From assembly GCA_016215605.1 (NCBI GenBank), contig JACRJB010000010.1, positions 1 through 64,000 on the forward strand: 64,000 nucleotides of DNA, read 5' to 3'. Made by a program: the position numbers and the translations under genes. The notes beneath the pieces are model-generated. The model worked only from the letters and a program-made list of their open reading frames with translations. It was not told the origin of the DNA and searched no databases. Source of the DNA: Rhodopseudomonas palustris (GTDB lineage: Bacteria > Pseudomonadota > Alphaproteobacteria > Rhizobiales > Xanthobacteraceae). Shown in pieces: positions 1 through 16,170 of this stretch; the stretch's first letter is position 1, and every line of letters starts with the position of its first letter.

Positions 1-376
1 CCGGGCGTCTCGAAGGATGGGGCAACGCATTCGCTGCGGCCCATGGTTCGAGACGGCGCTACGCGCCTCCTCACCATGAGGTTGTGCGCGTGGCAGACGG
101 TGTCGATCAGCTCTGATTCGATGAAAAACAGAACTGCTCTAACACGCGCCACTGCGGCGTATGGATTTCGGGCTCGCTCGCCTTGCTCGCGCCCCGGATT
201 GACAGCAAGCAAGTTCGTCATTGCGAGGAGCTCTTGCGACGAAGCAATCCAGGGCTGCGCGTGAAGACTGCGGTTGCCGCCCCTGGATTGCTTCGCTGTC
301 GGCCGACGCTTCGCGCCGCCCTCGGCTCGCAATGACGGCTGCGGGCGCGGTGCCTCGCCGAGACTCTAAGCCGTAA
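1..376. other. gene-free left edge
   Basis: I see no convincing gene here. The one open frame, at 43-264, has no ribosome binding site and no recognisable protein, and it runs into the palindromic repeat at 216-337. The stretch is the region downstream of the minus-strand ABC transporter operon that ends at 377. Confidence 0.6.
216..337. repeat. dispersed palindromic repeat, copy 1
   Basis: The ends are CGTCATTGCGAG and CTCGCAATGACG, with inner arms CGAAGCAATCCAGG and CCTGGATTGCTTCG, so the element can fold into a long hairpin. Two more copies with the same termini and inner arms lie at 16089-16170 and 63649-63730. This copy is longer and has a diverged right arm. It lies downstream of the ABC transporter operon. 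Elements of this kind are common between genes in the Bradyrhizobium group; the function is unknown. Confidence 0.85.
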
Positions 377-1222
377 CTACTTCACCGCCTGCTGGTCGAA
401 GGCGCGCAGGCTTTCGGCGCGGATCAGGTCGAGGCAGTCTTTCTTGTAGGCCGCATAGGCCGGCGACAGCACCAGATCGCTGCTGCGCGGGCGCGGCAGG
501 TCGATGCGCAGGTCGCGGACGATGCGGCCCGGGCCGGCGCTCATCAGCAGCACGCGATCGGCGAGGAAGATCGCCTCGTCGATGTCGTGGGTGACGAACA
601 CGATGGTGGTGCCGACCTGGGCCCACAACGCCAGCAAGCTCTCCTGCATCACCGTCCTGGTCTGCGCGTCGAGCGCGCCGAACGGCTCGTCCATCAGCAG
701 CACCGCGGGGCGGTTGGCCAGCGCGCGGGCGATCGCCACCCGCTGCTGCATGCCGCCGGACAGCGTGTGCGGATAGGCATCGGCGAAGCGGGTGAGGCCG
801 ACCATCGCGATCAGATCGTCGGCGATGGCGCGCGCCTGCTTGTTCGATCGTCCGGCCATGCTGGGGCCGTGCGAAATGTTGCTGCGCACCGACTTCCAGG
901 GAAACAGATGCGGTTGCTGGAACACCATGCCGCGCTCCGGCCCCGGCGCGGTCACCGGCTCGCCGGCGACGCGCACGCTGCCTTCGAACGGCGTCTCGAA
1001 TCCCGCGATGGTGTTCAGCACGGTGGATTTGCCGCAACCGGAAGGGCCGAGCAGACAGACGAATTCGCCGCGGCGGATCTGGAACGAGACCCGGTCGGCG
1101 GCCACCACCTGGCCCTTCGGGGTGTCGAACACGATGCTGACATCGTCGACCTCGATCTCGACCGGGTTCTGCGTCGCCGCCTTGGTCATGGTCACCTGTT
1201 CGTCCGCCAGATCCATCATCAT
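377..1222 (-). CDS. ABC transporter ATPase, nitrate/sulfonate/taurine (SsuB/TauB) family
   Basis: This is the ATP-hydrolysing subunit of an importer, 281 aa. Visible motifs are Walker A GPSGCGKST (residues 59-67), a Q-loop in VFQQPH, the signature LSGGMQQR (154-161), Walker B VLLMDEP (174-180) and the switch His in VTHD (H212). The C-terminal tail is typical of SsuB/TauB proteins. I chose the ATG at 1222 because it overlaps the permease stop (ATGATGATGG, 4-base overlap), which implies translational coupling; the ATGs at 1219, 1216 and 1189 are alternatives. It is the last gene of the minus-strand operon. The family is clear but the substrate is not; the neighbouring amidase suggests a nitrogen-rich organic compound. 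Confidence 0.93.
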   Translation of the reverse strand: MMMDLADEQVTMTKAATQNPVEIEVDDVSIVFDTPKGQVVAADRVSFQIRRGEFVCLLGPSGCGKSTVLNTIAGFETPFEGSVRVAGEPVTAPGPERGMVFQQPHLFPWKSVRSNISHGPSMAGRSNKQARAIADDLIAMVGLTRFADAYPHTLSGGMQQRVAIARALANRPAVLLMDEPFGALDAQTRTVMQESLLALWAQVGTTIVFVTHDIDEAIFLADRVLLMSAGPGRIVRDLRIDLPRPRSSDLVLSPAYAAYKKDCLDLIRAESLRAFDQQAVK

Positions 1223-2022
1223 CGCCACCAGACCAGTCGTTGCGTCAGTGCGGAAAATCCGCGATCGGCCAGGAACGAGATCACCCCCAGCGCCACCAGC
1301 CCGCCCATCACCTGGCCGGTCTGCAGATTCTGCTGCGCGATCTCGATCCGGTAGACGATTCCCGCGAACGCGCCGGCGAGTTCGGCGGCGACCAGCGTGT
1401 AGAACGAGATGCTGACCGCGGTGCGCAGCCCGACTGCGATGTAGGGGAGCGCGCCGAGCAGCACGATCTCGGTCAGCATGCGACGGCGCGGCGTGCCCAG
1501 CATCAGGGCGGCGCGGATCAGCCCGCGATCGATCTTCTGCACGCCGATGTGGGTCGTGAGCCACACGGTGAAGAACACGCCCCAGAACACCAGAAAGATC
1601 TTGCCGGTTTCCGACAGACCGAACCACAGGATCACGATCGGCACGAAGGCGATCGGCGGGATCGGCCGCAGGATGTGAAACACCGGCGAGAACAGGCTGG
1701 AGACGAATGCGAACTGCCCGGTCAGCACGCCGAACACCACGCCGATCGAGGCGCCGAGCAGATAGCCGGTGACCACGCGGGCGACGCTGTAGGCGAGGTC
1801 GATGGCGAACTCGCCGCTCTTGATCCATTCGCCCATCGCGACCGCCACGACGGTCGGCGGCGGAAACAGGATGATGTTGACGATCTGCGAGCGCGAGACG
1901 GCTTCCCAGATCAGCAGGAACAGCGGAATCGACAGGATCGAGATCGCCATATTGATCCGCTGCTGTCGCCCGCTGCTCATGATCGGCCTTCGGATTGTGA
2001 CGGTTGGTGGCGTGTGTTTCAT
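1219..2022 (-). CDS. ABC transporter permease, SsuC/TauC (NitT/TauT) family
   Basis: This is a 267-aa inner-membrane permease with about six membrane segments. The first, around residues 26-44, follows a polar N-terminus. The EAA-loop region appears as ALMLGTPRRRMLTEIVLLGALPY, shown here only to locate it near residue 175. It is followed by the ATPase with a 4-base overlap and preceded by the binding protein 174 bases upstream, so the three form one importer. The start is ATG 2022; MSSGRQQ, 14 codons in, is another possible start. Confidence 0.92.
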   Translation of the reverse strand: MKHTPPTVTIRRPIMSSGRQQRINMAISILSIPLFLLIWEAVSRSQIVNIILFPPPTVVAVAMGEWIKSGEFAIDLAYSVARVVTGYLLGASIGVVFGVLTGQFAFVSSLFSPVFHILRPIPPIAFVPIVILWFGLSETGKIFLVFWGVFFTVWLTTHIGVQKIDRGLIRAALMLGTPRRRMLTEIVLLGALPYIAVGLRTAVSISFYTLVAAELAGAFAGIVYRIEIAQQNLQTGQVMGGLVALGVISFLADRGFSALTQRLVWWR

Positions 2023-2196
2023 CGACTGGTCGACCCGTCTCGGTTGATTGTGCTGGTCGCCTGTCCCGCTCGCGGCGGAGAGGCCGACCGGCTGGGCGCA
2101 GCGAAGCCGGGTGGACGAGGGGCCTCCGCCAAGTCGTCCGGCGCGGAGACGCCCCTCATCAAGACCCTCTGTCCGGCAGCGGGACGATGGAGGTCG

Positions 2197-3189
2197 CTAA
2201 CCGCCCGCGGCCTTGTAGGTGACGCGCGACGGATCGAGCTTCTTCAGAATTTCCGGTGCGAACACTTTGGTGAAATCCGGCATGGTGGCGCCGGGCGGAT
2301 GGTTGCCGCTTTCCAGCCGCCAGGCGGCATGAGTCTTCAGAACGTCGAGCTGGCGGTCGTCGAGCCGGACTTGGTAGACATAGTCCTTCCAGATCGGCGC
2401 CAGATCCTCGCGCTTGATGGCCACCGCGGTCGCCACGGTGGTGATCGCCTCTTCGGGATTGGCTTTCATCCAGGTCTCGGCATCGATCATCGCCGCCAGG
2501 AATTTCTCCATCAAAGGCCCGTTCTTCTCCAGATAGTCGCGCATCACCACGATGTTGAAGGTCTCGGAATAGATCCCCTTGGTGTCGAGTTCGGCGACGT
2601 CGGCGCCGAGCGTTTTCTTGGCATTGGCGATATGCGGCTCCCAGGTGTCGAACGCGTCGATGCTGCCCGACAGCAGCGCCGGCAGCATCTCCTGCGGGCG
2701 CAGATTGACCAGCGTGACGTCCTCCTTCTTCAGCCCGGCGGCTTTCAGCAGCGCCAAAGTGTAGACCTCGCTGCCGGTGCCGGCGGTGAAGGCGATCTTT
2801 TTGCCCTTCAGCCCCGCTTTGTCCTTGATGCCCGCCTTGGTGGCGACCACGGTCTTCAGATCGGAATATTCCATCCGCGCCAGGAACGCGATCGGCTGCC
2901 CCGCCATCGCGGCGGCCGTGACCGGCGCTTCGGCCGTGGTGGCGATGTCGGCGCCACCGCCCACGACGGTGTCGAGGCATTGCTTGCCCGAGGTGAAGTT
3001 GCTCACCGTGATGTCGAGCCCGCGCTTCTCGAAGAAGCCCTGCTGTTTGGCGACGATGACGATGCCGGAGATCGGTCCGAGATTCTGCGCCAGCTTCGCC
3101 TTCAGCATTTCGGCGCTGGCGGCTTCCGGTCGTAGAACTGCGCTCAGTAGCAGCGCTGCGGTGATGGCGGCCATTCTTGCGTTCGACAT
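2197..3189 (-). CDS. ABC transporter substrate-binding protein, NMT1/SsuA-like
   Basis: This periplasmic binding protein of 330 aa begins with a cleavable signal peptide (about residues 1-26, hydrophobic core then PEAASAE). The mature part is a type-2 binding fold of the NMT1/THI5-SsuA class: an early segment GIVIVAKQQGFFEKRGLDI, then a GGADIA-type loop and the FDTWEPH segment typical of sulfonate/nitrate/pyrimidine binders. I chose ATG 3189 over the upstream ATG 3207 because AAGGAGGGG lies 5-13 bases before it. It should deliver substrate to the downstream permease and ATPase. The ligand cannot be read from sequence. Confidence 0.92.
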   Translation of the reverse strand: MSNARMAAITAALLLSAVLRPEAASAEMLKAKLAQNLGPISGIVIVAKQQGFFEKRGLDITVSNFTSGKQCLDTVVGGGADIATTAEAPVTAAAMAGQPIAFLARMEYSDLKTVVATKAGIKDKAGLKGKKIAFTAGTGSEVYTLALLKAAGLKKEDVTLVNLRPQEMLPALLSGSIDAFDTWEPHIANAKKTLGADVAELDTKGIYSETFNIVVMRDYLEKNGPLMEKFLAAMIDAETWMKANPEEAITTVATAVAIKREDLAPIWKDYVYQVRLDDRQLDVLKTHAAWRLESGNHPPGATMPDFTKVFAPEILKKLDPSRVTYKAAGG

Positions 3190-3336
3190 CGAGCCCCTCC
3201 TTGGCATTCCGTTGATGCCCGCATCGTGGTTCCTGGTGCGGAACGCTCAAGCAATTAATCCACCGCCTCGCGCTCGGTGCAGGGCTGAAGAATCATCAGC
3301 CGCTGCCCGTCGTGTAGTCAGGCTGCGCGGCCTGCG

Positions 3337-4719
3337 TCAGCTCGCCACAGCCAGCGCCGGCGTCGTGGCTCGTTCGAACCCGAGCGCCAGCGTCCGCAGC
3401 AGCGCGTCGTCGCCGGCACGGCCGACGAAGCACAGCGACGAGCGCAGGCCGTCCGCGCGGGTCTGCCCGGGAATTGCGACGGCGCACATGTCGAGCGGAT
3501 TGACGAAGTAGGTGTAGGTGCCCATCGCGGAGTTGAGCGCCATCGGATCGGCCAGCATCTGGTCGATGGTGAAGATGGTCGGCACCGTCGGCACCACCAT
3601 GGCGTCGCAACCCGCCAGCAGCAGGCTGGCCTCGCGCTGCGCCTGCTTGATCTGATACAGCGCCCGAAAAGCGTCGCGGGCGGTGTAGCCGAGGCCGGGC
3701 TGCAGCGCTCTCCACACCGCGGGATGAATCGCCTCGGGGTGATCGCGCACCACATCGGCGCAGTCGATCAGCCGCTCCGCCACCATCGCGCTCTGGAACA
3801 CCAGCCGTCCCGCGGTCTCGAACACCGTGAAGTCGACCGGCTTCAGCCGGTGGCCGAGGCTCTGCAGCACCGCCAGATCGGCCTCGTAGGCGCGGGCCGC
3901 CGCCTCGTCGCCGAAGAACGTCAACTGATCGGCGCGCGGAATCGCGATGGTCAGCGGCTGCGGCGCACGCGGGCGCAGCTCGATCGCATCGGCGTCGGTT
4001 CGGCTGAGCGGATCCAGCACGTCGAAGCCGGCGATATTCTCGAGGATCTCGTAGGCGTCGTCGGCGAATTTGCAGAACACCGGAATGCAATCGAACGAAC
4101 GGTTGTTGTAGACGAGGCCACGTGAGCTCACGAGGCCGATGGTCGGCTTCAGCCCGACGATCCCGTTGCAGGCGGCCGGCACCCGGCCGGAGCCGCCGGT
4201 GTCGGTGCCGAGCGAGAACGCCACGATCTCGCGCGCCACCGCGACCGCCGAGCCGGAGCTGGAGCCGCCGGGAATGTAGGCCGGGTCGATCGCGTTGCGG
4301 CACAAAGGATCGGGGCTGCGGGTGCCGTTGAGGCCGGTGGCGAACTGATCCAGCGTGTTCTTGCCGATCAGCACCGCGCCGGCGGCTTCCAGCAGCGTCA
4401 CGGCGTGCGCGGAGTCGGTGGGCTCGAGCCGCATCGCCGGGCAATTGCAGGTGGTCGGCAGTCCGGCGACATGGATGCTGTCCTTGACGGAGAAGGGCAG
4501 GCCGAGCAGCGGCAGCTCGGCGCCGGCGTCGGCGCGCGCCTGCAATTCCCTGGCGCGGGCGACGGCGACTTCCCGATCGACCAGCAGCGTGAAGACGCCG
4601 TCGTCGGCGCAGGCCTGCGCGCGGCGGCAGGCTTCGGCGATGATCAGCGGCGCGGCGATGCCCTGGGCCATGGCGCGGCGGATCGAGGCGAAGCTGAAGT
4701 CCAGGGCGGCGAGGGTCAT
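3337..4719 (-). CDS. amidase-signature hydrolase, allophanate-hydrolase-like
   Basis: This 460-aa cytoplasmic enzyme belongs to the amidase signature family. The triad positions are visible: Lys79 in SVKD, cis-Ser153 in GGSSSGS, and nucleophile Ser177 in GTDTGGS. The segments GKNTLDQFATGLNGTRSP and YIPGGSSSGSA match the amidase half of allophanate hydrolase (AtzF/DUR1,2 type), which splits allophanate to ammonia and CO2. The usual C-terminal second domain of AtzF, about 150 residues, is absent. It sits between a TauE-type exporter and an ABC importer, which suggests it attacks a compound brought in by that importer. The true substrate may be another ureide or amide. Confidence 0.88.
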   Translation of the reverse strand: MTLAALDFSFASIRRAMAQGIAAPLIIAEACRRAQACADDGVFTLLVDREVAVARARELQARADAGAELPLLGLPFSVKDSIHVAGLPTTCNCPAMRLEPTDSAHAVTLLEAAGAVLIGKNTLDQFATGLNGTRSPDPLCRNAIDPAYIPGGSSSGSAVAVAREIVAFSLGTDTGGSGRVPAACNGIVGLKPTIGLVSSRGLVYNNRSFDCIPVFCKFADDAYEILENIAGFDVLDPLSRTDADAIELRPRAPQPLTIAIPRADQLTFFGDEAAARAYEADLAVLQSLGHRLKPVDFTVFETAGRLVFQSAMVAERLIDCADVVRDHPEAIHPAVWRALQPGLGYTARDAFRALYQIKQAQREASLLLAGCDAMVVPTVPTIFTIDQMLADPMALNSAMGTYTYFVNPLDMCAVAIPGQTRADGLRSSLCFVGRAGDDALLRTLALGFERATTPALAVAS

Positions 4720-5515: not shown

Positions 5516-5862
5516 GAACTATGCCGGCGGACTGGTGGTGGATCGAAGCGGACGAGTTCGCGCCGACAGGTTCCGGGATTTCCGGCTTCATTGTGAGCAA
5601 TTAATTGTCAGTTCGGCGCCGTGGACCAGGTCGGGGTCGGGGGGGCAGCGCTTGCGGGAGAAAACGATGAGTCCCCGCATCGCTCCGCAGCGCGCCCGCC
5701 GTCTCGATCTCGTCGGCTGCAATGCTCGGTCCCAACACTGCTCTCCAAGTCCAGCTGCGCAATTCTTCGGCGGCCGAACGGGGCAGGCGCGAGATAGCCG
5801 GACGGCCGGCGGTTACTCCGCCGCGGGCCGTTCGACAGCGAGCGTCGTGCTGATCGGAATCT
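5516..5862. other. intergenic region upstream of the TauE operon
   Basis: No gene is seen here. The stretch holds the promoter side of the TauE operon. It includes GAGCAATTAATTG near 5596-5608, and a related CAAGCAATTAATCC occurs near 3248-3261 upstream of the binding-protein gene. Both lie on the promoter side of genes in the same operon, so a shared operator is possible but unproven. The region also collects downstream sequence of amiR. Confidence 0.4.
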
Positions 5863-6450
5863 CTATCCGGCCGCGCGCGGCGTCTGGCTCTGGGCGACCA
5901 GTTCGGCGGCGAGCTGTTCGATGGTCTTGCGCTGTTCCATCGCCATCCGCCGCAGCAGCGCGAAGGCGGCCGGTTCGGGCAGTCCCTGCGCGTGCATCAG
6001 CTGAACCAGCGCCGCCAGCACCACGCGCCGCGCCCGCAGCCGCGCCTCCATCTTGGCGAGCTGCTGCTTCATGTCGGCGGTGCGCGCGATCCGCTCGAAC
6101 GCCATCACCACCGCCGCGTAGATGCCGGCGGAGCGCAGCGGCTTGACCAGGAACGACGACGGATCGAGATCGAGCACCAGCTTCAGCCGGCTCGGCGTTT
6201 CGGTGCCGAGCAGCACGATCACCGCGCAGCCCTCGGGCACGGCGAACGCGGCCGCTTCCGCGACCGGCAGGAAATCGTCGTCGATCAGGATCAGGTCGAC
6301 CGGGCGATCGAGCGGCTCGCCCGGCGCCCAGCTCGCGATCTCGATGCCGAGGCGATCGAACTGCCGGCGGACGATCGAGGCGTCGCGCTCGTCCTTGATG
6401 GCGAGGACGGCCTTGCGGCCGCGCAGCGAAAACGACGAGGGCTTGCTCAT
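5863..6450 (-). CDS. amiR: AmiR-type ANTAR-domain transcription antiterminator
   Basis: A 195-aa cytoplasmic regulator. Residues about 10-115 form a degenerate receiver-like domain (DLILIDDDF, LVKPL). It is followed by a coiled-coil (MKQQLAKMEARLRARR) and a C-terminal ANTAR helical bundle with the typical spacing around LMHAQGLPEPAAFALLRRMAM. In Pseudomonas, AmiR binds nascent leader RNA and prevents early termination, and AmiC holds it inactive when amides are absent. Its ATG overlaps the amiC stop by four bases (ATGA), so the two proteins are probably made together. The likely target is the leader at 7868-7906, upstream of the divergent amidase operon. Confidence 0.92.
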   Translation of the reverse strand: MSKPSSFSLRGRKAVLAIKDERDASIVRRQFDRLGIEIASWAPGEPLDRPVDLILIDDDFLPVAEAAAFAVPEGCAVIVLLGTETPSRLKLVLDLDPSSFLVKPLRSAGIYAAVVMAFERIARTADMKQQLAKMEARLRARRVVLAALVQLMHAQGLPEPAAFALLRRMAMEQRKTIEQLAAELVAQSQTPRAAG

Positions 6451-7604
6451 TTGACGATCCTCAGGTGAGGCGCATTCGGAATCCGTCCGTCCTTCGACGG
6501 CCGGACCGCGACATCGAGTTGCGACAAATAAGGGTCGGGCTTCACGGGAGCGTCCGCCTCCCAGAAGATATCGAACTGGCCTTGCGCGTTGGAGACGGCG
6601 AGACGTGGCGTAAGGACGCAGTGATTGTTGTCGCCGTCGATCCACACCGGACCTTGCGGCGAGTCGTAGCGATGGCCGGCGGCGGCGCGGCGCACCTCGG
6701 CGACCTTCGACGTGCCGGCGCGCTGCAGCGCGCGCGCCAGCAGGAACACCGCCACATAGGCGGACTGGCCGTCGACCGACGGGCTGCTGTCGTCGCCGTA
6801 GCGCGCCTTCCAGCGCGCCACGAAGGCGCGGTTCTCCGGCAGCCGGATGCTCTCGAAATAGGCCGACGAGGTGAGGCAGCCGGCGCCCGCCGCGCCGACG
6901 ATCTTCAGCTCCGGCTCGCACAGGCTGCAGCTCAGCATCGGAATGTCGAGGCCCGCGGTCGCCGCGTGGAAGGCGCGGATGAAATCGTAGCTCGAACTGC
7001 CGACCAGCGTGTTGAACACGATCGGCGGCCTCCGGCGCACGATCTCGTCGACGATGTGCTCGACCCGGCTCTCGCCGAGCTCGAGCAGGCGTTCGGCGAG
7101 GATGCGCCCGTCCGCGGCGCTCACCAGCTCGCGCGCGACGCGATTGGTCTCCCAGGTCCAGACGTAGTTGGAGCCGACGCAGAACAGCTCGCGCGACAGA
7201 TTGCCGAGCACGTAGCGCATCAGCGGCACCACGTTGTGATTGGGCGAGGCGCCGACATACATCACGTTGTCGGAGCATTCGAAGCCTTCGTAACGCGCCG
7301 GATACCACAGCAGCCGCTCGGTGCGCTCGACGATCGGCAGCACCTGCTTGCGCGACGCCGAGGTGTAGCAGCCGATGATGTGCTCGACGCCGACGTTGCG
7401 GATCAGGTCGTCGCAGGCGGTGTGATATTCGGCGATCACGCCGCCGGGATCGCGGACATGCGCGGCGAGCGTGAAGTCGAACTCCGCGCTCTGGTTGACC
7501 TCGTCGATCGCCATCAGCGCCGACTTCAGGATCTCGCGTCCCATCGCCTGATAGGGGCCGGATTTCGAACTGAGAATTCCGACAGGGATGGGCGGCTTCG
7601 TCAT
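6447..7604 (-). CDS. amiC: AmiC-like amide-sensing negative regulator
   Basis: A 385-aa protein with the type-1 periplasmic-binding fold but no signal peptide, starting MTKPPIPVGILSSKSGPY, so it should stay in the cytoplasm as AmiC does. The segments GCYTSASRKQVLPIVE, LLWYPARYEGFE and SPNHNVVPL are typical of AmiC/UrtA/FmdD proteins. The AmiC role is to bind short-chain amides and then release AmiR. It is co-translated with amiR and is transcribed away from the amidase operon. A separate exported relative (10458-11696) is the transporter's binding protein, so sensor and transporter proteins appear to derive from one ancestor. Confidence 0.9.
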   Translation of the reverse strand: MTKPPIPVGILSSKSGPYQAMGREILKSALMAIDEVNQSAEFDFTLAAHVRDPGGVIAEYHTACDDLIRNVGVEHIIGCYTSASRKQVLPIVERTERLLWYPARYEGFECSDNVMYVGASPNHNVVPLMRYVLGNLSRELFCVGSNYVWTWETNRVARELVSAADGRILAERLLELGESRVEHIVDEIVRRRPPIVFNTLVGSSSYDFIRAFHAATAGLDIPMLSCSLCEPELKIVGAAGAGCLTSSAYFESIRLPENRAFVARWKARYGDDSSPSVDGQSAYVAVFLLARALQRAGTSKVAEVRRAAAGHRYDSPQGPVWIDGDNNHCVLTPRLAVSNAQGQFDIFWEADAPVKPDPYLSQLDVAVRPSKDGRIPNAPHLRIVK

Positions 7605-8011
7605 GGATCGCTTTCATTGGCGCGCGGCGCGCATGAGATCATTAAGGCCGCGAACGGATCAAGAGCGCCGCTGCTGTTTTGCTGCGCAGCACTCGGGCAG
7701 GATTTGTGCAAGCTCCCTCGTTGACATTGCGAAGCTCCCCAACCTAGACTTTCGTCGTTGGGTGACAATCGAACTGAGCTTGAATTTGGCCGACGACGTC
7801 CGAATCCAAGCATGAGTGTCTCGGTCGATCGTCAACTCACACGTTAGATCATAGCCGCGGCATCCGAGCCATTCGCTCCTCGTTTTTGAGGGCGGGTGGC
7901 TTTTTTCGTTTGCCGTTCCAGAACAATTGGCGATGCGGGCGCGTCGTCGAAACGCTGATGCATGCCCGGCGACTGCCGGGCCGGCGTCGGCGCATGCGGG
8001 GAGTAACTGCC
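7605..8011. promoter_or_regulatory. divergent control region and amidase operon leader
   Basis: This 407-base region separates amiC (left) from the amidase operon (right). It should hold both promoters and the untranslated leader of the operon. A hairpin CCAAC...GTTGG is visible near 7739-7761, and the intrinsic terminator at 7868-7906 is the clearest element. I did not confirm the pair of A1/G4 hexaloop hairpins expected of an ANTAR target; a weak candidate is GGC-ATCCGA-GCC, which ends inside the terminator's 5' arm. No coding gene is supported. Confidence 0.6.
7868..7906 (+). terminator. leader intrinsic terminator, probable AmiR antitermination target
   Basis: The arms GCCATTCGCTCCTC and GAGGGCGGGTGGC pair almost fully (one bulge, several G-T pairs) around the loop GTTTTT, and TTTTTT follows directly. 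It lies about 105 bases before the amidase start and no gene ends nearby on this strand. That makes it an attenuator and not an end-of-gene terminator. With amiC-amiR next door, amide-dependent antitermination is the natural reading. The hairpin is seen in the sequence; the regulation is inferred. Confidence 0.75.
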
Positions 8012-9412
8012 GTGGGGACGCCGGATCTTCATTATCGCGGGCTGGTCGAGGTCGGTCGCGACATCCAGTCGAAAAAATTGTCGTCGGCCGACGTGACCAA
8101 AGCGATGCTGCAACGCATCGACAAGCTCGACGGCAAGCTGAAGAGCTTCGCGCATGTCACGCCCGAATTCGCGTTGCAGGAGGCGGCCGCCGCGGACAAG
8201 GAGATCGCCGCCGGAAAGCTGCGCGGGCCGCTGCACGGCGTGCCGATCGCCGTGAAGGATCTGTGCTGGGTCAAGGGCATGCCGGCGGCGCACGGCATGA
8301 CGATCCATCGCGACTTCATGCCGGGCGAGGACGCGACCGTGGTGACGCGCCTGAAGCAGGCCGGCGCGATCATTCTCGGCAAGCTGCAGCAGACCGAAGG
8401 CGCTTACGCCGATCACCATCCAAAGATCGACCCGCCGAAGAATCCCTGGAACACCGAGCTGTGGTCCGGCGCCTCGTCGAGCGGCTCGGGTTCGGCGACC
8501 GCCGCCGGGCTGTGCTTCGGCTCGCTCGGCACCGACACCGGCGGCTCGATCCGGTTTCCGTCGGCCGCCAACGGCATTACCGGGCTGAAGCCGAGCTGGG
8601 GCCGCGTCAGCCGCTACGGCGCCTATGAACTCGCCGCGACGCTCGATCACATCGGCCCGATGGCGCGCAGCGCGGTCGATTGCGGCGCGATGCTGAGTGT
8701 GATCGCCGGCCCCGATCCCAAGGACACCACGGCGGTGCCGCTCGCCGTGCCGAACTACACCGCGAACCTGTCCGGCGATCTCAAGGGCGTGGTGATCGGC
8801 GTCGATTGCCGCTGGACCAGCGAAGGCACCGACGAGCCGACCGCCAAGGTGCTCGACGACGCGCTGCGTGTCGCCAAGGATCTCGGTGCGACCATCACCG
8901 AGATCGTGTTCCCGGATGCGCAGGCGGTGACCGACGACTGGTTCCCGCTGTGCGGCATCGAGGCCGCGGTGGCGCACGAGGCGACCTATCCGGCGCGCAA
9001 GGACGAGTACGGTCCGGGCCTCGCCGGCCTGCTCGACCTCGGCTTGCAGCAATCCGGCACCGATTATCAGAAGATCGTGCTGCGCCGCGAGGCGTTCCGT
9101 GGCGCGGTCCGGGCGCTGTTCGAGACCGTGGATCTGATCGCGGTGCCGGCGCAGGCGTTCGCCGCGCCGACGCTCGCCAAGATGGCGTCGCTCGGCGAGG
9201 ACGCCTCGCTGATCGGCGGGCTGCTGCGCTTCACCTGTCCGTTCGACATGACCGGCAGCCCCACCATCACGTTGCCCGGCGGCTTCGCGGCGAACGGCGG
9301 CCCGGTCGCGTTTCAGTTCGTCGGCCGGCATTTTGACGAAGCCCGTCTGGTCGCCGCCGGCGACGCGTTCCAGCGCGCCACCGACTGGCACAGCCGCCAT
9401 CCCGCCCTCTGA
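8012..9412 (+). CDS. amidase (amidase signature family), copy 1
   Basis: A 466-aa amide hydrolase. The triad positions are Lys82 (AVKD), cis-Ser155 (GASSSGS) and nucleophile Ser179 (GTDTGGS). I chose the GTG at 8012 because GGGGAG lies eight bases upstream and the protein then begins MGTPDLHYRGL, which matches the start of the second amidase (MDLHYAS). The ATG at 7994 lacks a binding site, and the frame upstream of it runs through the leader. It is the first gene of the amide operon, 16 bases before the formamidase gene. It probably releases ammonia from small amides; the exact substrate is unknown. Confidence 0.9.
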   Translation: MGTPDLHYRGLVEVGRDIQSKKLSSADVTKAMLQRIDKLDGKLKSFAHVTPEFALQEAAAADKEIAAGKLRGPLHGVPIAVKDLCWVKGMPAAHGMTIHRDFMPGEDATVVTRLKQAGAIILGKLQQTEGAYADHHPKIDPPKNPWNTELWSGASSSGSGSATAAGLCFGSLGTDTGGSIRFPSAANGITGLKPSWGRVSRYGAYELAATLDHIGPMARSAVDCGAMLSVIAGPDPKDTTAVPLAVPNYTANLSGDLKGVVIGVDCRWTSEGTDEPTAKVLDDALRVAKDLGATITEIVFPDAQAVTDDWFPLCGIEAAVAHEATYPARKDEYGPGLAGLLDLGLQQSGTDYQKIVLRREAFRGAVRALFETVDLIAVPAQAFAAPTLAKMASLGEDASLIGGLLRFTCPFDMTGSPTITLPGGFAANGGPVAFQFVGRHFDEARLVAAGDAFQRATDWHSRHPAL

Positions 9413-9428
9413 GTTCGAAGGAGTCTCT

Positions 9429-10427
9429 ATGTCATCGGAAGATTGGTTGAAGAGTTCGATCATGGCGCAGCGCGGCGTCGCCAAGGGGGCGGCGGGCGCC
9501 GAGCACAGCCTGACGATCGAACAGCAGGGGGCGTTTCACTACGTCTACGGGCCCTACGCCAAGCCGACGCTGTCGATCGAGCCGGGCTCGGTCGTCGTGG
9601 TCGAGACCGAGGACGCGTTCGGCGGCGTCATCACCAGCGAGAGCGACAGCCCGACCGCGAAGCTGAACTTCCCCTACCTCAACCCGCAATGCGGCCCGAT
9701 CGCCGTCAAGGGCGCCAAGAAGGGCGACTGCCTCGCGGTCTACATCCGCGACGTCGAGACCCGCGGCGAGCAGCCGGCGGGCACCACCTGCATCATGCCG
9801 GAATTCGGCGGCCTGGTCGGCACCGCGCAGACCGCGCTGCTCAATCCGCCGCTGCCCGAACGCGTCAGGAAGCTCCATGTCGACCGCAACGGCATCAAAT
9901 GGAGCGACAAGATCACGCTGCCCTACGAGCCGTTCATCGGCACCATCGGGGTGTCGCCGGAGATCGAGGCGATCTCGTCGCTGCAGCCGGACTATCACGG
10001 CGGCAACATGGACCTGCCGGACGTCGCGCCGGGCGCGGTGATCTATCTGCCGGTGCACACCGAGGGCGCGCTGCTCTATGTCGGCGACTGCCATGCGACG
10101 CAAGGCGACGGCGAACTCTCCGGCGTCGCGCTCGAACAGCGCGCCACCGTGACGCTGCAGGTCGACCTGATCAAGGACTGGCACTTCGCCTGGCCGCGGC
10201 TGGAGACCAAGGACTTCATCATGACGATCGGCAGCGCGCGTCCGCTCGAGGACGCGGCGCGCATCGCCTATCGCGAACTGACGCGCTGGATGGCGTCGGA
10301 CTACGGCTTCGACGAGATCGACGCCTACATGCTGCTCAGCCAGGCCGGCCGCATCCGCCTCGGCAACATGGTGGACCCCAAATACACGATGGGGGCGTCG
10401 ATCCTGAAGAACTACCTCAAGGCGTAA
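9429..10427 (+). CDS. fmdA: acetamidase/formamidase (FmdA family)
   Basis: A 332-aa zinc-type acetamidase/formamidase, unrelated to the amidase signature family. It should convert formamide or acetamide to the acid and ammonia. Family features are EPGSVVVVETEDAFGG early, GPIAVKGAKKGDCLAVYI, the GTIGVSPE segment, and the conserved HTEGALLYVGDCHATQGDGE region (within residues 217-236) with Asp, His and Glu metal ligands. The start ATG 9429 follows GAAGGAG. It lies between an amidase and the transporter's binding protein, the usual FmdA-FmdDEF arrangement for uptake and use of short-chain amides. Confidence 0.94.
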   Translation: MSSEDWLKSSIMAQRGVAKGAAGAEHSLTIEQQGAFHYVYGPYAKPTLSIEPGSVVVVETEDAFGGVITSESDSPTAKLNFPYLNPQCGPIAVKGAKKGDCLAVYIRDVETRGEQPAGTTCIMPEFGGLVGTAQTALLNPPLPERVRKLHVDRNGIKWSDKITLPYEPFIGTIGVSPEIEAISSLQPDYHGGNMDLPDVAPGAVIYLPVHTEGALLYVGDCHATQGDGELSGVALEQRATVTLQVDLIKDWHFAWPRLETKDFIMTIGSARPLEDAARIAYRELTRWMASDYGFDEIDAYMLLSQAGRIRLGNMVDPKYTMGASILKNYLKA

Positions 10428-10457
10428 CTCGGGCTTTCAAGAAGGGGACGATCAGAC

Positions 10458-11696
10458 ATGCAAACCAGACATCTGCTCCGGACTGCCTTGCTGGGCTTCG
10501 CGCTCGGCGCTGCGGCTCCGTTCGCCGCGCTCGCCGCCGACCCGCCGCTCAAGGTCGGCCTGCTCGAAGACATCTCCGGCGACCTCGCCTTCATGGGGAT
10601 GCCGAAGCTGCACGGCTCGCAGCTCGCGGTCGAGGAGATCAACAAGAGCGGCGGCATCATGGGCCGACAGATCGAGCTGATCCATCTCGATCCGCAGGGC
10701 GACAACGCGCGCTATCAGGAATTCGCCCGCCGGCTGCTCAACCGCGACAAGGTCGACGTGCTGATCGGCGGCATCACTTCGGCGTCGCGCGAAGCGGTGC
10801 GGCCGATCGTCGACCGGACGACGACGCCGTATTTCTACACCAACCAGTATGAAGGCGGCGTCTGCGACGCCAGCATGATCAGCATGGGCGCGGTGCCCGA
10901 GCAGCAGTTCTCGACGCTGATCCCCTGGATGGTCGAGAAGTTCGGCAAGAAGGTCTACGTCATCGCCGCCGATTACAATTTCGGCCAGATCTCGGCGGAG
11001 TGGAACCGCAAGCTGATGAAGGATCTCGGCGGCGAAGTCGTCGGCGAGGAGTTCATCCCGCTCGGCGTCTCGCAATTCGCCCAGACCATCCAGAACATCC
11101 AGAAGGCCAAGCCGGACTGGTTGCTGACCATCAATGTCGGCGCCGCGCAGGATTCGTTCTTCGAACAGGCCGCCGCCGCCAATCTCAACCTGCCGATGGG
11201 CTCGTCGATCAAGGTGATGCTCGGCTTCGAGCACAAGCGCTTCAAGCCGCCGGCTCTCAACAACATGCACGCCACCGCGAACTGGTTCGAGGAAATCGAC
11301 ACGCCGGAAGCCGAAGCCTTCAAGAAGCGCTGGAAGGCCAAGTTCCCCGACGAGATGTACATCAACGACATGGGCTACAACGCCTACAACACGCTCTACA
11401 TGTACAAGACGCTGGTGGAGAAGGCGAAGTCGACCAAGCTCGAGGATCTGCGCAAGGTCATCGCCACCGGTGACGCCTGCATCGACGCGCCCGAAGGCAA
11501 GGTCTGCATCGATCCGAAGAGCCAGCACACCTCGCACCGGATGCGGCTGATCTCGGTCGGGCCGAAGCACGAGGTCAAGGTCGAGAAGGACTACGGCACG
11601 ATCCAGCCGTACTGGCTCGGCGAGATCGGCTGCGATCTCACCAAGAAGAACGACAAGGATCAGTACACGCCGAGCCATCTGCCGAAGAAATCGTGA
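10458..11696 (+). CDS. amide/urea-type ABC transporter substrate-binding protein (UrtA/FmdD-like)
   Basis: A 412-aa periplasmic protein. The signal peptide covers about residues 1-26 (…AALAADPP). The mature part is a Peripla_BP_6 (Leu/Ile/Val-type) binding protein starting LKVGLLEDISGDLAFMG. GGITSASREAVRPIV and the FYTNQYEGG segment place it in the urea/short-chain amide branch, close in plan to AmiC. The C-terminal KVCIDPKSQHTSHRM segment is typical of this branch. It is followed, after 100 bases, by two permeases and two ATPases that complete the importer. The start is ATG 10458, after AAGGGGA. Confidence 0.93.
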   Translation: MQTRHLLRTALLGFALGAAAPFAALAADPPLKVGLLEDISGDLAFMGMPKLHGSQLAVEEINKSGGIMGRQIELIHLDPQGDNARYQEFARRLLNRDKVDVLIGGITSASREAVRPIVDRTTTPYFYTNQYEGGVCDASMISMGAVPEQQFSTLIPWMVEKFGKKVYVIAADYNFGQISAEWNRKLMKDLGGEVVGEEFIPLGVSQFAQTIQNIQKAKPDWLLTINVGAAQDSFFEQAAAANLNLPMGSSIKVMLGFEHKRFKPPALNNMHATANWFEEIDTPEAEAFKKRWKAKFPDEMYINDMGYNAYNTLYMYKTLVEKAKSTKLEDLRKVIATGDACIDAPEGKVCIDPKSQHTSHRMRLISVGPKHEVKVEKDYGTIQPYWLGEIGCDLTKKNDKDQYTPSHLPKKS

Positions 11697-11796
11697 CGCG
11701 TCGCGGCACTGATCTTGCAGAGTAACTGCGTGCCTCATCACCATCGCCTCGGCGCCGCGAGCTTGCGGCGCCGGGTTCCGCAACTAGGAGCCCAAG

Positions 11797-12663
11797 ATGT
11801 CGGCTGAAGTGTTCTCGGTCTTCTATCAGTTCGCCGACGTCTTCGCCTTTTTGATCCTCTCCGCCGCGGGCCTCGCCATCGTGTTCGGCATGATGGGGGT
11901 GATCAACATGGCGCACGGCGAGTTCATCATGTGCGGCGCCTACGTCACGGTCGGCCTGGTCAATCTCGGCGTGCCACTGCCGATCGCGCAGATCGCCGCG
12001 GCGATCACCGCCGGGCTGATCGGCGTCGTGGTCGAATATCTGATCGTCCGCCGCTTCTACAAGCGCCCGCTGGATTCGCTGCTCGCGACCTGGGGCCTCA
12101 GCCTGATCGTGACGCAGTCGATGCTGCTGATCGTCGGCTCCTCGGTGCGCGGCATCGGCACGCCCGAAGGCAGCTTCGCCATCGGCGCCTACACCTTCTC
12201 GTCGTATCGGCTGGTGCTGTTCGCCGCCGCGGTCGCGGTGCTGGTCGGGCTGTACATCGTGTTCATGAAGACGCGGTTCGGCGTGATCGCGCGGGCGACG
12301 ATGCAGAACGCCGCGATGGCGCGGGCGCTCGGCGCGCGCACCGGGCGCATCTATGCGATCAGCTTCGGCATCGGCGCCGGCCTCGCCGGCCTGTGCGGCG
12401 CGCTCTATGCGCCGACCATGACGCTGATCCCGACGATGGGCGCGACCTTCGTGGTCGAGAGTTTCGTCACCGTGGTGATCGGCGGCGCCAATGTGCTGCT
12501 CGGCACCGCGCCGGCGGCGCTGCTGCTGGCGGCGATCCGGATGACGTTGAATGCGAGCTACGGCCAGATCATCGGCCAGATCGGCATGCTGGTGGCGGTC
12601 ATCCTGATCATCCGGGTGCTGCCCGAAGGCTTGTCGAGCGTGCTGGTGCGGCGTGGGCGCTGA
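11797..12663 (+). CDS. branched-chain amino acid/urea-type ABC permease (LivH/UrtB)
   Basis: A 288-aa inner-membrane permease with about eight hydrophobic segments. The family motifs GMMGVINMAHGEFIMCGAY (near residue 31) and ALGARTGRIYAISFGIGAGLAGLCGAL (near 167, cited to locate it) are clear. It forms the first half of the membrane channel and pairs with the next gene, 12 bases away. A good Shine-Dalgarno sequence, AACTAGGAG, precedes ATG 11797. With FmdA and AmiC/AmiR nearby, an amide importer is a better guess than an amino acid importer. Confidence 0.92.
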   Translation: MSAEVFSVFYQFADVFAFLILSAAGLAIVFGMMGVINMAHGEFIMCGAYVTVGLVNLGVPLPIAQIAAAITAGLIGVVVEYLIVRRFYKRPLDSLLATWGLSLIVTQSMLLIVGSSVRGIGTPEGSFAIGAYTFSSYRLVLFAAAVAVLVGLYIVFMKTRFGVIARATMQNAAMARALGARTGRIYAISFGIGAGLAGLCGALYAPTMTLIPTMGATFVVESFVTVVIGGANVLLGTAPAALLLAAIRMTLNASYGQIIGQIGMLVAVILIIRVLPEGLSSVLVRRGR

Positions 12664-12675
12664 GCGGAGGGGACG

Positions 12676-13746
12676 ATGATCAAACTGCTCGAAGGTCCGC
12701 AGACGCTGGGGCGCGGCCCGGTGTTCTGGTCGTGCTTCCTCGCCGTGCTGGCGGGGGCGCTGATCTATCCGCTGTTCGCCGATTCCTACGACGTCGGCAA
12801 TTTCTCCTACTTCCTGATCTGGATCTTCATGGCGCTCGGCCTGTGCCTGATGTGGGGCTATGGCGGCATGCTGTCGTTCGGCCAGACGCTGTTCTTCGGC
12901 ATCGCCGGCTACGCCTATGGGGTGCTGGCGATCAACATGGGCGGCGGCACCACCACGATCGCGGCGCTGCTGCTGTCGGTGGTGATCGCGATGATCGCCG
13001 CCGGCATCCTCGGCTATTTCATGATTTGGGGCGGCATCAACGGCATTTTCTTCGGCATCGTCACTTTGTCGGCGACGCTGGTGCTGGCGTTCTTCCTCGG
13101 CCAGACCGCGGGGCCCGAATGGCACATCGGCGATGCGCGGCTGAACGGCTTCAACGGCATGAAGGGCATGGACCCGCTGGCGATCGGCTCGGTCTATATC
13201 GAAGGTTCGGCGCTGTATTACGTGATGGTCGCGCTGATCGTGATCGTCTATCTGGCGCTGCGGATGCTGGTGAATTCCGGCATCGGCAATGTCATCGTCG
13301 CCACCCGCGAAAATCCGCAGCGCGCCGAAATGCTCGGCTACGACGTTCGCAAATATCAATTGCTGACCTTCGTGCTCGGCAGCGGCCTCGCCGGGCTCTC
13401 GGGCGCGCTTTATACCTCGTGGGGGCAGTTCATCACGCCGTCGAGCATCGGCCTGCCGGCCGCCGCGATGCCGATCGTCTGGGTCGCGTTCTCCGGCCGC
13501 AGCGATCTCACCGCCACTTTGGTCGGCTCGTTCCTGCTGCTGTTCGGCTTCCAGACCATCACGGTCTACAGCCAGCAGGCCGCATTGGTGCTGATGGGCG
13601 CGCTGCTGCTCGCCACCGTGATGGCGGCGCCGCAGGGCTTCGTGCTCGGCATCGGCAAATTCGTCGCCGATCGTTTGACAGGGCGAGGCAAGCGCGGCGA
13701 GGCCGACCTGTCGGCCGCGAGCACGCTGAAGACGGACGAGGCCTGA
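12676..13746 (+). CDS. branched-chain amino acid/urea-type ABC permease (LivM/UrtC)
   Basis: A 356-aa inner-membrane permease, the second channel subunit, with about ten hydrophobic segments. The LivM hallmarks are MWGYGGMLSFGQTLFFGIAG (near residue 56) and ATRENPQRAEMLGYDVRKYQ (near 209). The polar C-terminal tail of about 30 residues is unremarkable. GGAGGGG precedes ATG 12676. The next gene starts two bases after its stop, so translation of permease and ATPase is likely coupled. Confidence 0.92.
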   Translation: MIKLLEGPQTLGRGPVFWSCFLAVLAGALIYPLFADSYDVGNFSYFLIWIFMALGLCLMWGYGGMLSFGQTLFFGIAGYAYGVLAINMGGGTTTIAALLLSVVIAMIAAGILGYFMIWGGINGIFFGIVTLSATLVLAFFLGQTAGPEWHIGDARLNGFNGMKGMDPLAIGSVYIEGSALYYVMVALIVIVYLALRMLVNSGIGNVIVATRENPQRAEMLGYDVRKYQLLTFVLGSGLAGLSGALYTSWGQFITPSSIGLPAAAMPIVWVAFSGRSDLTATLVGSFLLLFGFQTITVYSQQAALVLMGALLLATVMAAPQGFVLGIGKFVADRLTGRGKRGEADLSAASTLKTDEA

Positions 13747-13748
13747 TC

Positions 13749-14468
13749 ATGTCGCTGGTCGAGGTCAAAGGCGTCTCCAAGCGGTTCGGCGGATTGAGAG
13801 CGGTGTCCGAGGTCGATCTGAGCGTGAAGGCCGGCGAGGTGCATTGCCTGATCGGCCCGAACGGCGCCGGCAAGAGCACGCTGTTCAAGCTGATCGTTGG
13901 GCTGTTCCCGCCGACCAGCGGCAGCATCCTGTTCGACTCCGTCGACATCACCGCAGAGCGGCCGTTCGCGCGGGTCCAGCGCGGCATGAGCATCAAGATG
14001 CAGGCGCCGAGCGTGTTCAAGGAACTGCCGGTGCTGCAGAACATCCAGATCGCCCTGCAGGAGCGCACCTCCGGCGCCGAGCGCGCGCGCGAACAGGAGC
14101 GGCTGCTCGAGCTGCTCGGCCTTGCGCAGGATCGTACCAAGATGGCCGGCGCGCTGTCGCATGGCCAGCAGCAATGGCTGGAGATCGGCATGGCGCTGGC
14201 GCTGCAGCCGCAATTGCTGCTGCTCGACGAGCCGACCGCGGGCATGTCGCCGGAAGAGACCTTCAAGACCGGCGAACTGATCAAATCGTTCAACGCCGAG
14301 GGCATGACGGTGCTGGTGGTCGAGCACGACATGGCGTTCGTGCGCCAGATCGCCCAGCGCGTCACCGTGCTGCATCTCGGCAAGATTTTTGCGCGCGGCA
14401 GTCTCGACGAGATCCTGCAGGACGAGCAGGTCGCCGAGATCTATCTGGGGAAGACCCATGCTCACTAA
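13749..14468 (+). CDS. ABC transporter ATPase (LivG/UrtD-like)
   Basis: A 239-aa ATP-binding subunit. The motifs are Walker A GPNGAGKST (36-44), a Q-loop in KMQAPSVF, the signature variant LSHGQQQWLEIGMAL, Walker B LLLLDEPTAGMS, and the switch His in VVEHDMAFV. The LSHGQQQWLE signature is typical of UrtD/LivG proteins. It overlaps the next ATPase gene by 11 bases. It works with the LivF-like partner to power the importer. Confidence 0.93.
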   Translation: MSLVEVKGVSKRFGGLRAVSEVDLSVKAGEVHCLIGPNGAGKSTLFKLIVGLFPPTSGSILFDSVDITAERPFARVQRGMSIKMQAPSVFKELPVLQNIQIALQERTSGAERAREQERLLELLGLAQDRTKMAGALSHGQQQWLEIGMALALQPQLLLLDEPTAGMSPEETFKTGELIKSFNAEGMTVLVVEHDMAFVRQIAQRVTVLHLGKIFARGSLDEILQDEQVAEIYLGKTHAH

Positions 14469-15183
14469 ATCCGGGTCCACCGATCGCATTCTCGACGTCA
14501 GGGGATTGTGGGCCGGCTACGGCGCCACCCCGATCCTGCAGGGCGTCGACATGACGATCATGCGCGGCGAGATCGTCGGCGTGATCGGTCGCAACGGCGT
14601 CGGCAAATCGACGCTGATGCGCTGCATCATCGGCCTGCTCGACTCCTGGCGCGGCACCATCGCGTTCATGGATCGCGACGTCACGGCGCTGCAGGCCGAC
14701 GCGCGGGCGCGCGCCGGCTTCGGCTACATCCCGCAGGGCCGCGACGTGTTTCCGCAGATGACCGTCGAGGAAAATCTGCAGGTCGGCGAACTGATCGGCG
14801 GCCCGAAGGGCAAGAAGCTGCCGGAAATGGTCTACGAGTATTTCCCGCGGCTGCGCGAGCGGCGCAAGCAGATCGCCGGCACGATGTCGGGCGGCGAGCA
14901 GCAGCAGCTCGCGATCGGCCGCGCGCTGATCGGCAATCCGGCGCTGATGATCCTCGACGAGCCGTCCGAGGGCATCCAGCCGTCGATCGTGCAGCACATC
15001 TGCGAGGCGCTGAAATCGTTCCGCAGCGAGCTCGGCACCACGATCGTGTTCGTCGAGCAGAATCTCGACACGATTCTGGCGATCGCGCAGCGCTGCTACA
15101 TCATGGAAAAGGGCCGGATCACGCATTCGCTGGTCGGCGACGAGGTCAACGAGGACAAGGTGCGGGCACAATTGCTGCTGTGA
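14458..15183 (+). CDS. ABC transporter ATPase (LivF/UrtE-like)
   Basis: A 241-aa second ATPase of the importer. The motifs are Walker A GRNGVGKST, the signature MSGGEQQQLAIGRAL, Walker B LMILDEPSEGIQPS and a switch region FVEQNLD. The Glu-for-His change there is usual in LivF/UrtE proteins. I chose ATG 14458 because the frame upstream (from 14389) reads antisense-like junk inside livG, while MLTKSGSTDRILDVRGL is a normal LivF start. Its start lies 11 bases inside the previous gene. The DEPSEGIQPS form is frequent in the urea/amide branch. Confidence 0.93.
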   Translation: MLTKSGSTDRILDVRGLWAGYGATPILQGVDMTIMRGEIVGVIGRNGVGKSTLMRCIIGLLDSWRGTIAFMDRDVTALQADARARAGFGYIPQGRDVFPQMTVEENLQVGELIGGPKGKKLPEMVYEYFPRLRERRKQIAGTMSGGEQQQLAIGRALIGNPALMILDEPSEGIQPSIVQHICEALKSFRSELGTTIVFVEQNLDTILAIAQRCYIMEKGRITHSLVGDEVNEDKVRAQLLL

Positions 15184-15262
15184 AGCGCGATTAGTTGGCG
15201 CATCATCAATTTTATCGGGGGAGCCGCCGCATCCGCGCGGCCGGCCACAGAGGGAGACGAAC

Positions 15263-16024
15263 ATGGATCTCGGATTGAAGGGCGCCAAGGTGCTGGTCAC
15301 CGGCGGCACCAAGGGCATCGGCCGCGCGGTCGCCGAAACCTTCGCGGCGGAAGGCGCCGATGTGGCGATCTGTTCACGCAATCAGGCGGAGGTCGACGCG
15401 ACCGTCGCGGCGCTGAAGAGCAAGGGCGTCGCGGCCTATGGCGGCGCGGTCGACGTGTCGAACGGCCCGGCGCTGAAGGCCTGGGTCGCCGACATGGCGG
15501 CCAAGCTCGGCGGCGTCGATATCATCGTCGCCAATGTCAGCGCGCTGGCGATCGGGCAGGACGAGGACAGCTGGGAGAAGGAATTCGCCACCGACATGAT
15601 GGGCACGGTGCGGCTGGTCGACGCCGCGATGCCCTATCTGGAGAAGAGCGGCGCCGGCGCGATCGTCACCATCTCAAGCGTCTCGGGCCGCGAAGTCGAT
15701 TTCGCCGCCGGCCCCTACGGCACCTTCAAGGCCGCGATCATCCACTACACCCAGGGCCTCGCCTATCAGCTCGCCGGCAAGAACATCCGCGCCAATTCGG
15801 TGTCGCCGGGCAACACGTACTTTGAAGGCGGCGTCTGGAACCAGATCAAGGACGGCAATCCCGACCTGTACAAGGCCGCGCTGGCGCTCAACCCGACCGG
15901 GCGGATGGGCACGCCGCAGGAAATGGCCAACGCGGTCGTGTTCCTCGGCAGCAAGGCGGCGAGCTTCATCACCGGCACCAACCTCGTGGTCGACGGCGCG
16001 CTCACCAAGGGCGTGCAGTTCTAG
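15263..16024 (+). CDS. SDR-family oxidoreductase
   Basis: A 253-aa NAD(P)-dependent short-chain dehydrogenase/reductase. The cofactor motif TGGTKGIG is at 13-20, NVSA (the NNAG equivalent) at 91-94, catalytic Ser139, and Tyr152-x3-Lys156 (YGTFK). The C-terminal TGTNLVVDGALTKGVQF is typical of the FabG-like branch. GAGGGAGACGAAC precedes ATG 15263. It lies 79 bases after the last ATPase and before the second amidase, so it probably works on the carbon part of the amide substrate (an alcohol, aldehyde or ketone). The substrate is unknown. Confidence 0.9.
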   Translation: MDLGLKGAKVLVTGGTKGIGRAVAETFAAEGADVAICSRNQAEVDATVAALKSKGVAAYGGAVDVSNGPALKAWVADMAAKLGGVDIIVANVSALAIGQDEDSWEKEFATDMMGTVRLVDAAMPYLEKSGAGAIVTISSVSGREVDFAAGPYGTFKAAIIHYTQGLAYQLAGKNIRANSVSPGNTYFEGGVWNQIKDGNPDLYKAALALNPTGRMGTPQEMANAVVFLGSKAASFITGTNLVVDGALTKGVQF

Positions 16025-16088
16025 CGCATAGCCGGGCCAAGTCAGGAGCCCCGCTGAGGAAGTTACGTCTGGACTGAAGGACTCTCCC

Positions 16089-16170
16089 CGTCATTGCGAG
16101 CGAAGCGAAGCAATCCAGCGCAGTGCACGGGGCTGGATTGCTTCGTCGGCTTCGCCTCCTCGCAATGACG
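16089..16170. repeat. dispersed palindromic repeat, copy 2
   Basis: This compact copy has termini CGTCATTGCGAG and CTCGCAATGACG, with inner arms CGAAGCAATCCAG and CTGGATTGCTTCG around a short centre. It is nearly identical in form to copy 3 at 63649-63730. It lies in the 191-base gap between the SDR and the second amidase, inside what otherwise looks like one operon. It could therefore act as a processing or stabilising hairpin in that transcript. Confidence 0.9.

Follow-up and report, generated by a model that had tools for sequence, protein, structure and literature searches.

In the ami system of Pseudomonas aeruginosa, a promoter, a leader, an intrinsic terminator and the amidase gene lie in that order. 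The same order is found in the stretch of Rhodopseudomonas palustris DNA analysed here (contig JACRJB010000010.1 of assembly GCA_016215605.1, positions 1 to 64,000; hereafter the window), which also encodes homologs of the P. aeruginosa regulators AmiC and AmiR. As the sequence-only reading had it, amiC and amiR overlap by four bases (6447-6450) and are divergent from a set of nine genes that includes a transporter; the divergence of the regulator pair from the operon sets the locus apart from the P. aeruginosa ami system. The leader of the nine-gene set (7751-8011, plus strand) is very probably an antitermination switch run by the divergent AmiC/AmiR pair, acting on a diverged and widely spaced RNA target. 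Dual-hexaloop targets of ANTAR proteins are defined, in the accessible part of PMC3369931, by A1 and G4 in both six-nucleotide loops (hexaloops), with a variable linker. As far as the accessible parts of the work on EutV, NasR and NasT go (PMC3369931, PMC8934654, PMC7496416), those targets and the window leader share a hexaloop hairpin, P2, with a 3' arm that doubles as the first part of the terminator's 5' arm, and, upstream of it, another conserved hairpin, P1, of hexaloop size. The described targets have neighbouring P1 and P2 and A1/G4 in both loops, whereas in the window leader and its counterparts the two lie 66-74 nucleotides (nt) apart, with N-A-Y-G (A2/G4) in the P1 loop and, in most of the window's clade, A1 with G5 in the P2 loop. 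Because spacing and loop code depart in this way, we regard the leader as resembling a dual-hexaloop ANTAR target in the way it works, but as a variant rather than a strict member of the class.

A search of genome contigs with AmiC returned 58 loci; exclusion of L107 (26% identity, residues 6-90) left 57 AmiC-ortholog loci, mainly from Bradyrhizobium and Rhodopseudomonas, to set beside the window, which belongs to a 5.79 Mb genome (G000, contig C56). The window's clade comprises 48 leaders, nine loci with AmiC identity of 67-71% (L090-L096, L098 and L105) make up a deep set, and a non-redundant set of 38 leaders (alignments A1 and A2) served for the pair statistics of P1 and the terminator. 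The leader is present in the window and at all 57 loci. At 55 of the 57 a divergent amidase-signature gene starts at most 2 kb from amiC (the exceptions are L096 and L100), and a reading of the loci gives 49 that share a set of AS1, fmdA, binding-protein and urtB genes. At the nine deep loci the leader precedes either the same or different amidase and transporter genes; since it is retained before varied genes, regulator and leader seem to move as a module. The position of the leader also differs in relatives, where it may lie before amiC or between amiR and urtA, and the divergent layout is one of several. A model of the leader (148 positions), run on the window's own genome and 292 family genomes, found one strong site in the former, at 121.3 bits with the next at 16.8 bits, and 13 genomes at E<1e-17 (G000, G067, G075, G129, G135, G141, G156, G159, G196, G207, G215, G220 and G280). 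A protein search of 296 genomes showed that the same 13 carry this branch of AmiR, at an identity of at least 44%. Weak matches, with E from 4.5e-4 to 0.01, came from five further family genomes and, at a second site, from G135. As far as the model reaches, each genome seems to hold a single target for this AmiR.

Transcription of the leader can be assigned to a sigma-70-type promoter, TTGACA-18-TAGACT, at 7721-7750 on the plus strand, which rests on a promoter scan and on conservation. It is the sole promoter-like site in 5700-8100, where 0.2 are expected by chance, and its TTGACA sits 142-158 nt 5' of GCCATTCG in 57 of 58 sequences, the sole exception being L100, where the leader is present and the -35 is altered beside an insertion. 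Two further conserved blocks, TTTGCTGCGCA and ATTTGTGCA, lie at 7677-7711, 5' of the -35 in the aligned relatives, and are possibly an activator site, perhaps one for nitrogen control. The strong leader terminator of the sequence-only reading, placed about 105 bases before the first gene, also holds up: an intrinsic terminator occupies 7867-7906 on the plus strand, with its stem at 7867-7901 and a T-run at 7901-7906, the fold of 7866-7901 reaches -24.1 kcal/mol, and 105 bases separate its end from the GTG at 8012. Besides these folds, the evidence for the terminator is its conservation, because a simple terminator scan caught just the inner 7-bp part, and 1.7 such small sites are expected by chance; a strict terminator script failed on its counterparts in 21 of 57 relatives. 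Across the 38 non-redundant leaders the terminator pairs are nearly invariant, and all 38 carry identical copies of GCCATTCG and of CGGRTGGCT (where R is G or A). In folds of the conserved set and of the window, CGGCA (7858-7863) can pair with UGCCG (7910-7915) right after the T-run, and read-through RNA could therefore lengthen the terminator hairpin.

The stretch of about 105 bases between terminator and first gene, together with the conserved hairpin at 7927-7950, would suit a terminator that does no more than end a short RNA, or an attenuator that works constitutively, with the operon promoter downstream of 7906. That hairpin, P3, has 10 bp, would exist only in read-through RNA, and appears in the window folds and in the consensus fold of close leaders. 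An arrangement of this kind is nevertheless highly unlikely, as the one promoter-like site of the region lies at 7721-7750 with TTGACA and its spacing conserved, and as none of the 57 leaders shows any change in the GGC arm of P2, an arm that takes no part in the terminator stem.

P2 itself, GGC[AUCCGA]GCC with the loop in brackets, lies at 7859-7870 on the plus strand, where its 3' arm falls within the terminator's 5' arm; because of this sharing of bases, P2 and the terminator are, on paper, mutually exclusive. All 57 aligned leaders have GGC[6 nt]GCC overlapping the 5' arm of the terminator. In the window's clade the loop is mostly A-U-Y-N-G, with A1 in 48 of 48 and G5 in 47 of 48, and at the nine deep loci A1 is found in eight, G4 in eight, both in seven and G5 in none. 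Upstream of P2, a linker motif CATAG (7850-7854, plus strand) has an ATA that is invariant in the 38-row alignment.

P1 lies at 7784-7805 on the plus strand and consists of a stem, a C.U mismatch, a C-G pair and the hexaloop GACGAC (7792-7797; N-A-Y-G). In the 38 leaders the form is G-C, C.U mismatch (C.C in one), C-G and a loop N-A-Y-G-N-Y, of which positions 1 and 6 are G-C, A-U or G-U in 37. The hairpin is supported by covariation: 92.4% of cells pair, and six of the eight pairs are altered on both sides in some leaders. Counted over P1 and the terminator together, both-side changes number 39 cells, all of them in P1, where shuffles gave 10.4 +/- 2.8 (none of 500 reached 39) and slid controls 1-12 cells. 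A longer helix, S1 (7768-7829, plus strand, arms at about 7768-7778 and 7820-7829), encloses P1 in the window folds and in the consensus folds of 47 close leaders and of nine deep leaders, and 56 of the 57 leaders, when folded singly, have an enclosing helix of at least 4 bp.

The stretch 7749-7906 contains no hexaloop with A1/G4 on a 3-bp stem, and other readings of the leader were set aside. A canonical P1 beside P2 was looked for in 7830-7858, both by eye and in an enumeration of the hairpins of 47 aligned leaders, and was not accepted. CATAG as a loop AUAGCY, with one closing pair only in the window's clade, was rejected by eye. A kissing contact of the P1 loop AYGA with the UCAU in GATCATAG was dropped, likewise by eye; a U-to-C change in the Rhodopseudomonas loop is uncompensated. 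Also dropped was a guanidine-II-like reading of the loop ACGA: there is a single hairpin, the loop is AUGA in most relatives, and Rfam gives no match.

An 80-nt conserved and covarying domain in front of a terminator has the layout of a riboswitch, and the leader could be a metabolite riboswitch or be bound by another protein, with AmiR acting elsewhere or redundantly. We consider this unlikely. Over 7500-8200 no Rfam family exceeded its gathering threshold, no riboswitch matched at E up to 10, and one small-RNA family matched at chance level (14.2 bits, where the gathering score is 40). Furthermore, the P1 motif and P2 recur at urt-type AmiR operons with otherwise different leaders, and in 13 of 13 genomes the leader is found together with AmiR, although the operon accompanies them too.

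The recurrence at urt-type operons is seen within the same genome. At its own amiC-amiR-urt locus (G000:C67, L047) the leader has the same P1 motif (pyrimidine mismatch, C-G, N-A-Y-G hexaloop) and a P2, GGC[UGUGUA]GCC, that lies over the terminator with the same GGC/GCC stem; there too, an A1/G4 hexaloop with a 3-bp stem is lacking. That locus differs from the window in that its genes are co-directed and its leader separates amiR from urtA, and in its P1 and P2 loops, which are 24 nt apart. Among ten urt-type relatives, whose AmiR are 75-96% identical, eight have the P1 pattern (not L114 or L115) and nine have GGC[6]GCC at the terminator (not L123); in the seven with both, the loops are 22-24 nt apart. 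A scan of 21 loci on both strands for the combined pattern of P1, P2 and terminator gave one further, chance-like match (L046).

Of 17 further amiC loci (class B), 16 have GGC[6]GCC upstream of amiC, followed at 34-65 nt by a T-run; L019 has none. Twelve of these are co-directed amiC-amiR-binding-protein loci with P2, and in ten of the twelve a hexaloop hairpin (4 bp or more) lies 70-78 nt upstream, the exceptions being L031, where the sequence is incomplete, and L017, where none was found by rule. The P1 of class B is a different hexaloop hairpin, and the N-A-Y-G pattern with P2 and terminator is absent in L017-L033, L048 and L049. Loci L119-L122, which encode another subtype of AmiR, have several small hairpins 5' of the leader terminator, in L119 for example CCCC[AAUAGC]GGGG, GGCGGC[GACACA]GCCGCC and GGC[AACGAA]GCC. 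The NasS/NasT leaders of Bradyrhizobium, so far as the accessible part of PMC6759348 describes them, resemble the present case in having a sensor of the substrate-binding-protein type and an ANTAR protein that act on the terminator of a leader, within the same family of bacteria, and differ in nitrate sensing, in their target genes and in the RNA; the NasT leader of the window's own genome has GACAGC[AACGCU]GCUGUC at its terminator.

As a control, the strict script was applied to 348 kb of window and relatives, where it called 12 other terminators. Four of them belong to ANTAR leaders and eight do not (chance-like calls); an overlapping hexaloop was scored in two of the 12, both AmiR leaders, and in none of the eight. 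The two ANTAR leaders scored negative (NasT in L046 and class B in L048) do have the hairpin, in a register that the rule missed. This control alone does not discriminate, because 15% of places chosen at random in the window satisfy the loose P2-hairpin rule, and the case for P2 rests on its recurrence in separate ANTAR systems and on its invariance here.

That loose rule is one of several points that tell against antitermination by AmiR. The leader counts are not independent, because most leaders come from close relatives and the genome sets overlap. By a count of pairs the covariation is marginal, with six pairs against 4.3 in shuffles and 32 of 500 shuffles as high, and the closing pair of P1 is in the best single-sequence fold of only 51 of 57 leaders. 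P2 gives no covariation support, because its arms never vary, and its loop in the window's clade lacks G4, which is present in 2 of 48. In 57 leaders 66-74 nt separate the start of the P1 loop from that of the P2 loop, and lengthening the linker by 20 nt abolished the action of EutV, according to the accessible part of PMC8934654. Finally, the lysine with which EutV holds G4, K149, is present in none of the 57 AmiR sequences that were compared.

This comparison, made in EutV numbering, took in 57 AmiR with a complete ANTAR domain and left out L078, in which the domain is cut by a contig end. R142, E160, M172 and R175 are retained in all 57, R replaces K143 and F replaces Y164 in all 57, and K147, K149, N173 and R177 are retained in none. 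EutV, by contrast, has the lysine that contacts G4, and holds this base by K149 together with R142 and E160 (PMC8934654, accessible part); in NasR, the substitution K347R makes binding about tenfold weaker (PMC7496416, accessible part). By the numbering offset, NasR K347 would be the position of EutV K149. In the same alignment the NasT and the second AmiR of the window's own genome retain the lysine, and the second AmiR has I at R142; contact residues therefore vary within this family. A coupling of lysine loss to the shift from G4 to G5 was rejected: the two are not one event, because the deep loci lack the lysine and still have G4 in eight of nine loops. We suggest, tentatively and at less than even confidence, that this branch of AmiR uses a different RNA code: it would be recruited by a distant P1, which has a pyrimidine mismatch and the N-A-Y-G loop and sits in a long hairpin 66-74 nt upstream, and would act on a P2 in which the key G has shifted from position 4 to 5, through an ANTAR domain without the G4-contacting lysine. 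Were this so, the 70-78 nt spacing at 10 of 12 co-directed loci would add to ANTAR antitermination a second architecture, that of spaced hairpins, which the model of adjacent hairpins leaves unexplained.

The sequence-only reading had proposed that AmiC and AmiR control the operon by antitermination, and had predicted two A1/G4 hexaloops overlapping the terminator. The circuit is well supported by comparison, given a leader at a fixed place, its co-occurrence with AmiR in 13 of 13 genomes and a hexaloop that overlaps the terminator's 5' arm. The form of the hairpins is not the predicted one: a conserved pair exists, and P2 overlaps the 5' arm and has A1, but P2 has G5, and P1 has A2/G4 and stands 66-74 nt upstream. 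In the mechanism that we propose, which is the antitermination of the P. aeruginosa system, AmiC would hold AmiR when no inducer is present, and polymerase from the 7721-7750 promoter would halt at 7906. Binding of its ligand by AmiC would free AmiR, which would bind P1 as P1 emerges and then P2; P2 would capture the GCC required by the terminator, so that the terminator would be blocked and the nine genes would be read. We infer the binding by AmiR, its control by AmiC and the ligand, which is probably a short amide or a urea-like compound.

The regulators themselves are encoded on the minus strand. AmiR (5863-6450, 195 residues) is a pseudo-receiver and ANTAR RNA-binding protein, in which AmiR_N (35.1 bits) and a C-terminal ANTAR domain (41.8 bits) both score over the Pfam cut-offs, and it matches P. 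aeruginosa AmiR (PDB 1qo0_D) at E=1.8e-10. AmiC (6447-7604, 385 residues), the presumed repressor of AmiR, is an AmiC-type ligand-binding protein (Peripla_BP_5, 369.6 bits) that matches P. aeruginosa AmiC (PDB 1pea) at E=3.8e-63, with residues 8-360 of 385 aligned. Two loci have a disrupted amiC. In L100 (Bradyrhizobium barranii subsp. apii) a transposase-like open reading frame (ORF) interrupts the gene (ORFs 7195-8030 and 8672-9946) and a second transposase-like insertion adjoins the leader's -35, whose TTGACA is altered, while leader and operon persist; with the transposase identity taken from a reading of the ORFs, this would be a natural AmiC-damaged strain. In L106 (Bradyrhizobium sp. 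JYMT SZCCT0428) the amiC match covers only residues 264-385, as if the front of the gene had been deleted, and the leader is intact.

The nine co-directed ORFs on the plus strand (8012-17610) begin with an amidase-signature amidase with a GTG start (8012-9412; Pfam Amidase, 342 bits), followed by a formamidase/acetamidase of the FmdA/AmdA type (9423-10427; PF03069, 124.6 bits) and a transporter. The latter comprises a substrate-binding protein (10458-11696; TIGR03669 urea_ABC_arch, 632.3 bits against a cut-off of 494.8), two permeases (11797-12663 and 12676-13746), an ATPase read as an ORF only (about 13743-14468) and a second ATPase (14452-15183); urea-type NCBIfam models match 11797-15183 with scores under their cut-offs. 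A short-chain dehydrogenase/reductase (15263-16024) and a second amidase-signature amidase (16171-17610), both assigned by domain match, complete the set. We infer that the nine genes form one transcript; the strict script found no plus-strand terminator in the 64 kb window beyond that at 7867-7906, which fits a single transcript and is no proof of one. The operon differs from that of P. aeruginosa in that no AmiE-type (nitrilase-family) amidase was found among the genes matched here, which encode amidase-signature and FmdA enzymes and a urea-type transporter. A Klebsiella plasmid has an amiE-amiC-amiR operon with ATP-binding-cassette transporter genes (PMC13209695, accessible part), and an AmiC/AmiR-linked operon with a transporter is therefore not new by itself.

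Compatible with antitermination by AmiC/AmiR, and somewhat unlikely, is an inducer other than an amide, such as urea, a thio- or sulfonamide, or an amino-acid derivative. Such an inducer would agree with the score of the transporter's binding protein above the cut-off of the urea model TIGR03669, and AmiC has YPARYEG and VWTWETN where P. aeruginosa AmiC has YPTPYEG and IYPRESN, stretches that we take to sit at the amide pocket. Against it stand the enzymes of the operon, two with the amidase signature and one of the FmdA type.

In the literature on ANTAR proteins, on AmiC/AmiR and on Bradyrhizobium and Rhodopseudomonas, none of the titles and abstracts listed dealt with this leader, subscription papers being mostly out of reach. 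The set of leaders offers concrete candidates for the target RNAs of AmiR in both genera, and assigns a probable switch to a conserved operon for amide uptake and hydrolysis in soil and symbiotic bacteria. It also supplies matched natural variants (G4 or G5, near or spaced hairpins, lysine present or lost), which could help to answer the question, left open by the EutV structure, of how two hairpins serve an ANTAR dimer.

A further group of genes lies beyond amiR on the minus strand of the window (366-4719). It has a close copy at none of the 57 relative loci, which gave only matches of about 30%, and by ORF reading it consists of another amidase-like ORF (3337-4719) adjoining binding-protein-, permease- and ATPase-like ORFs.

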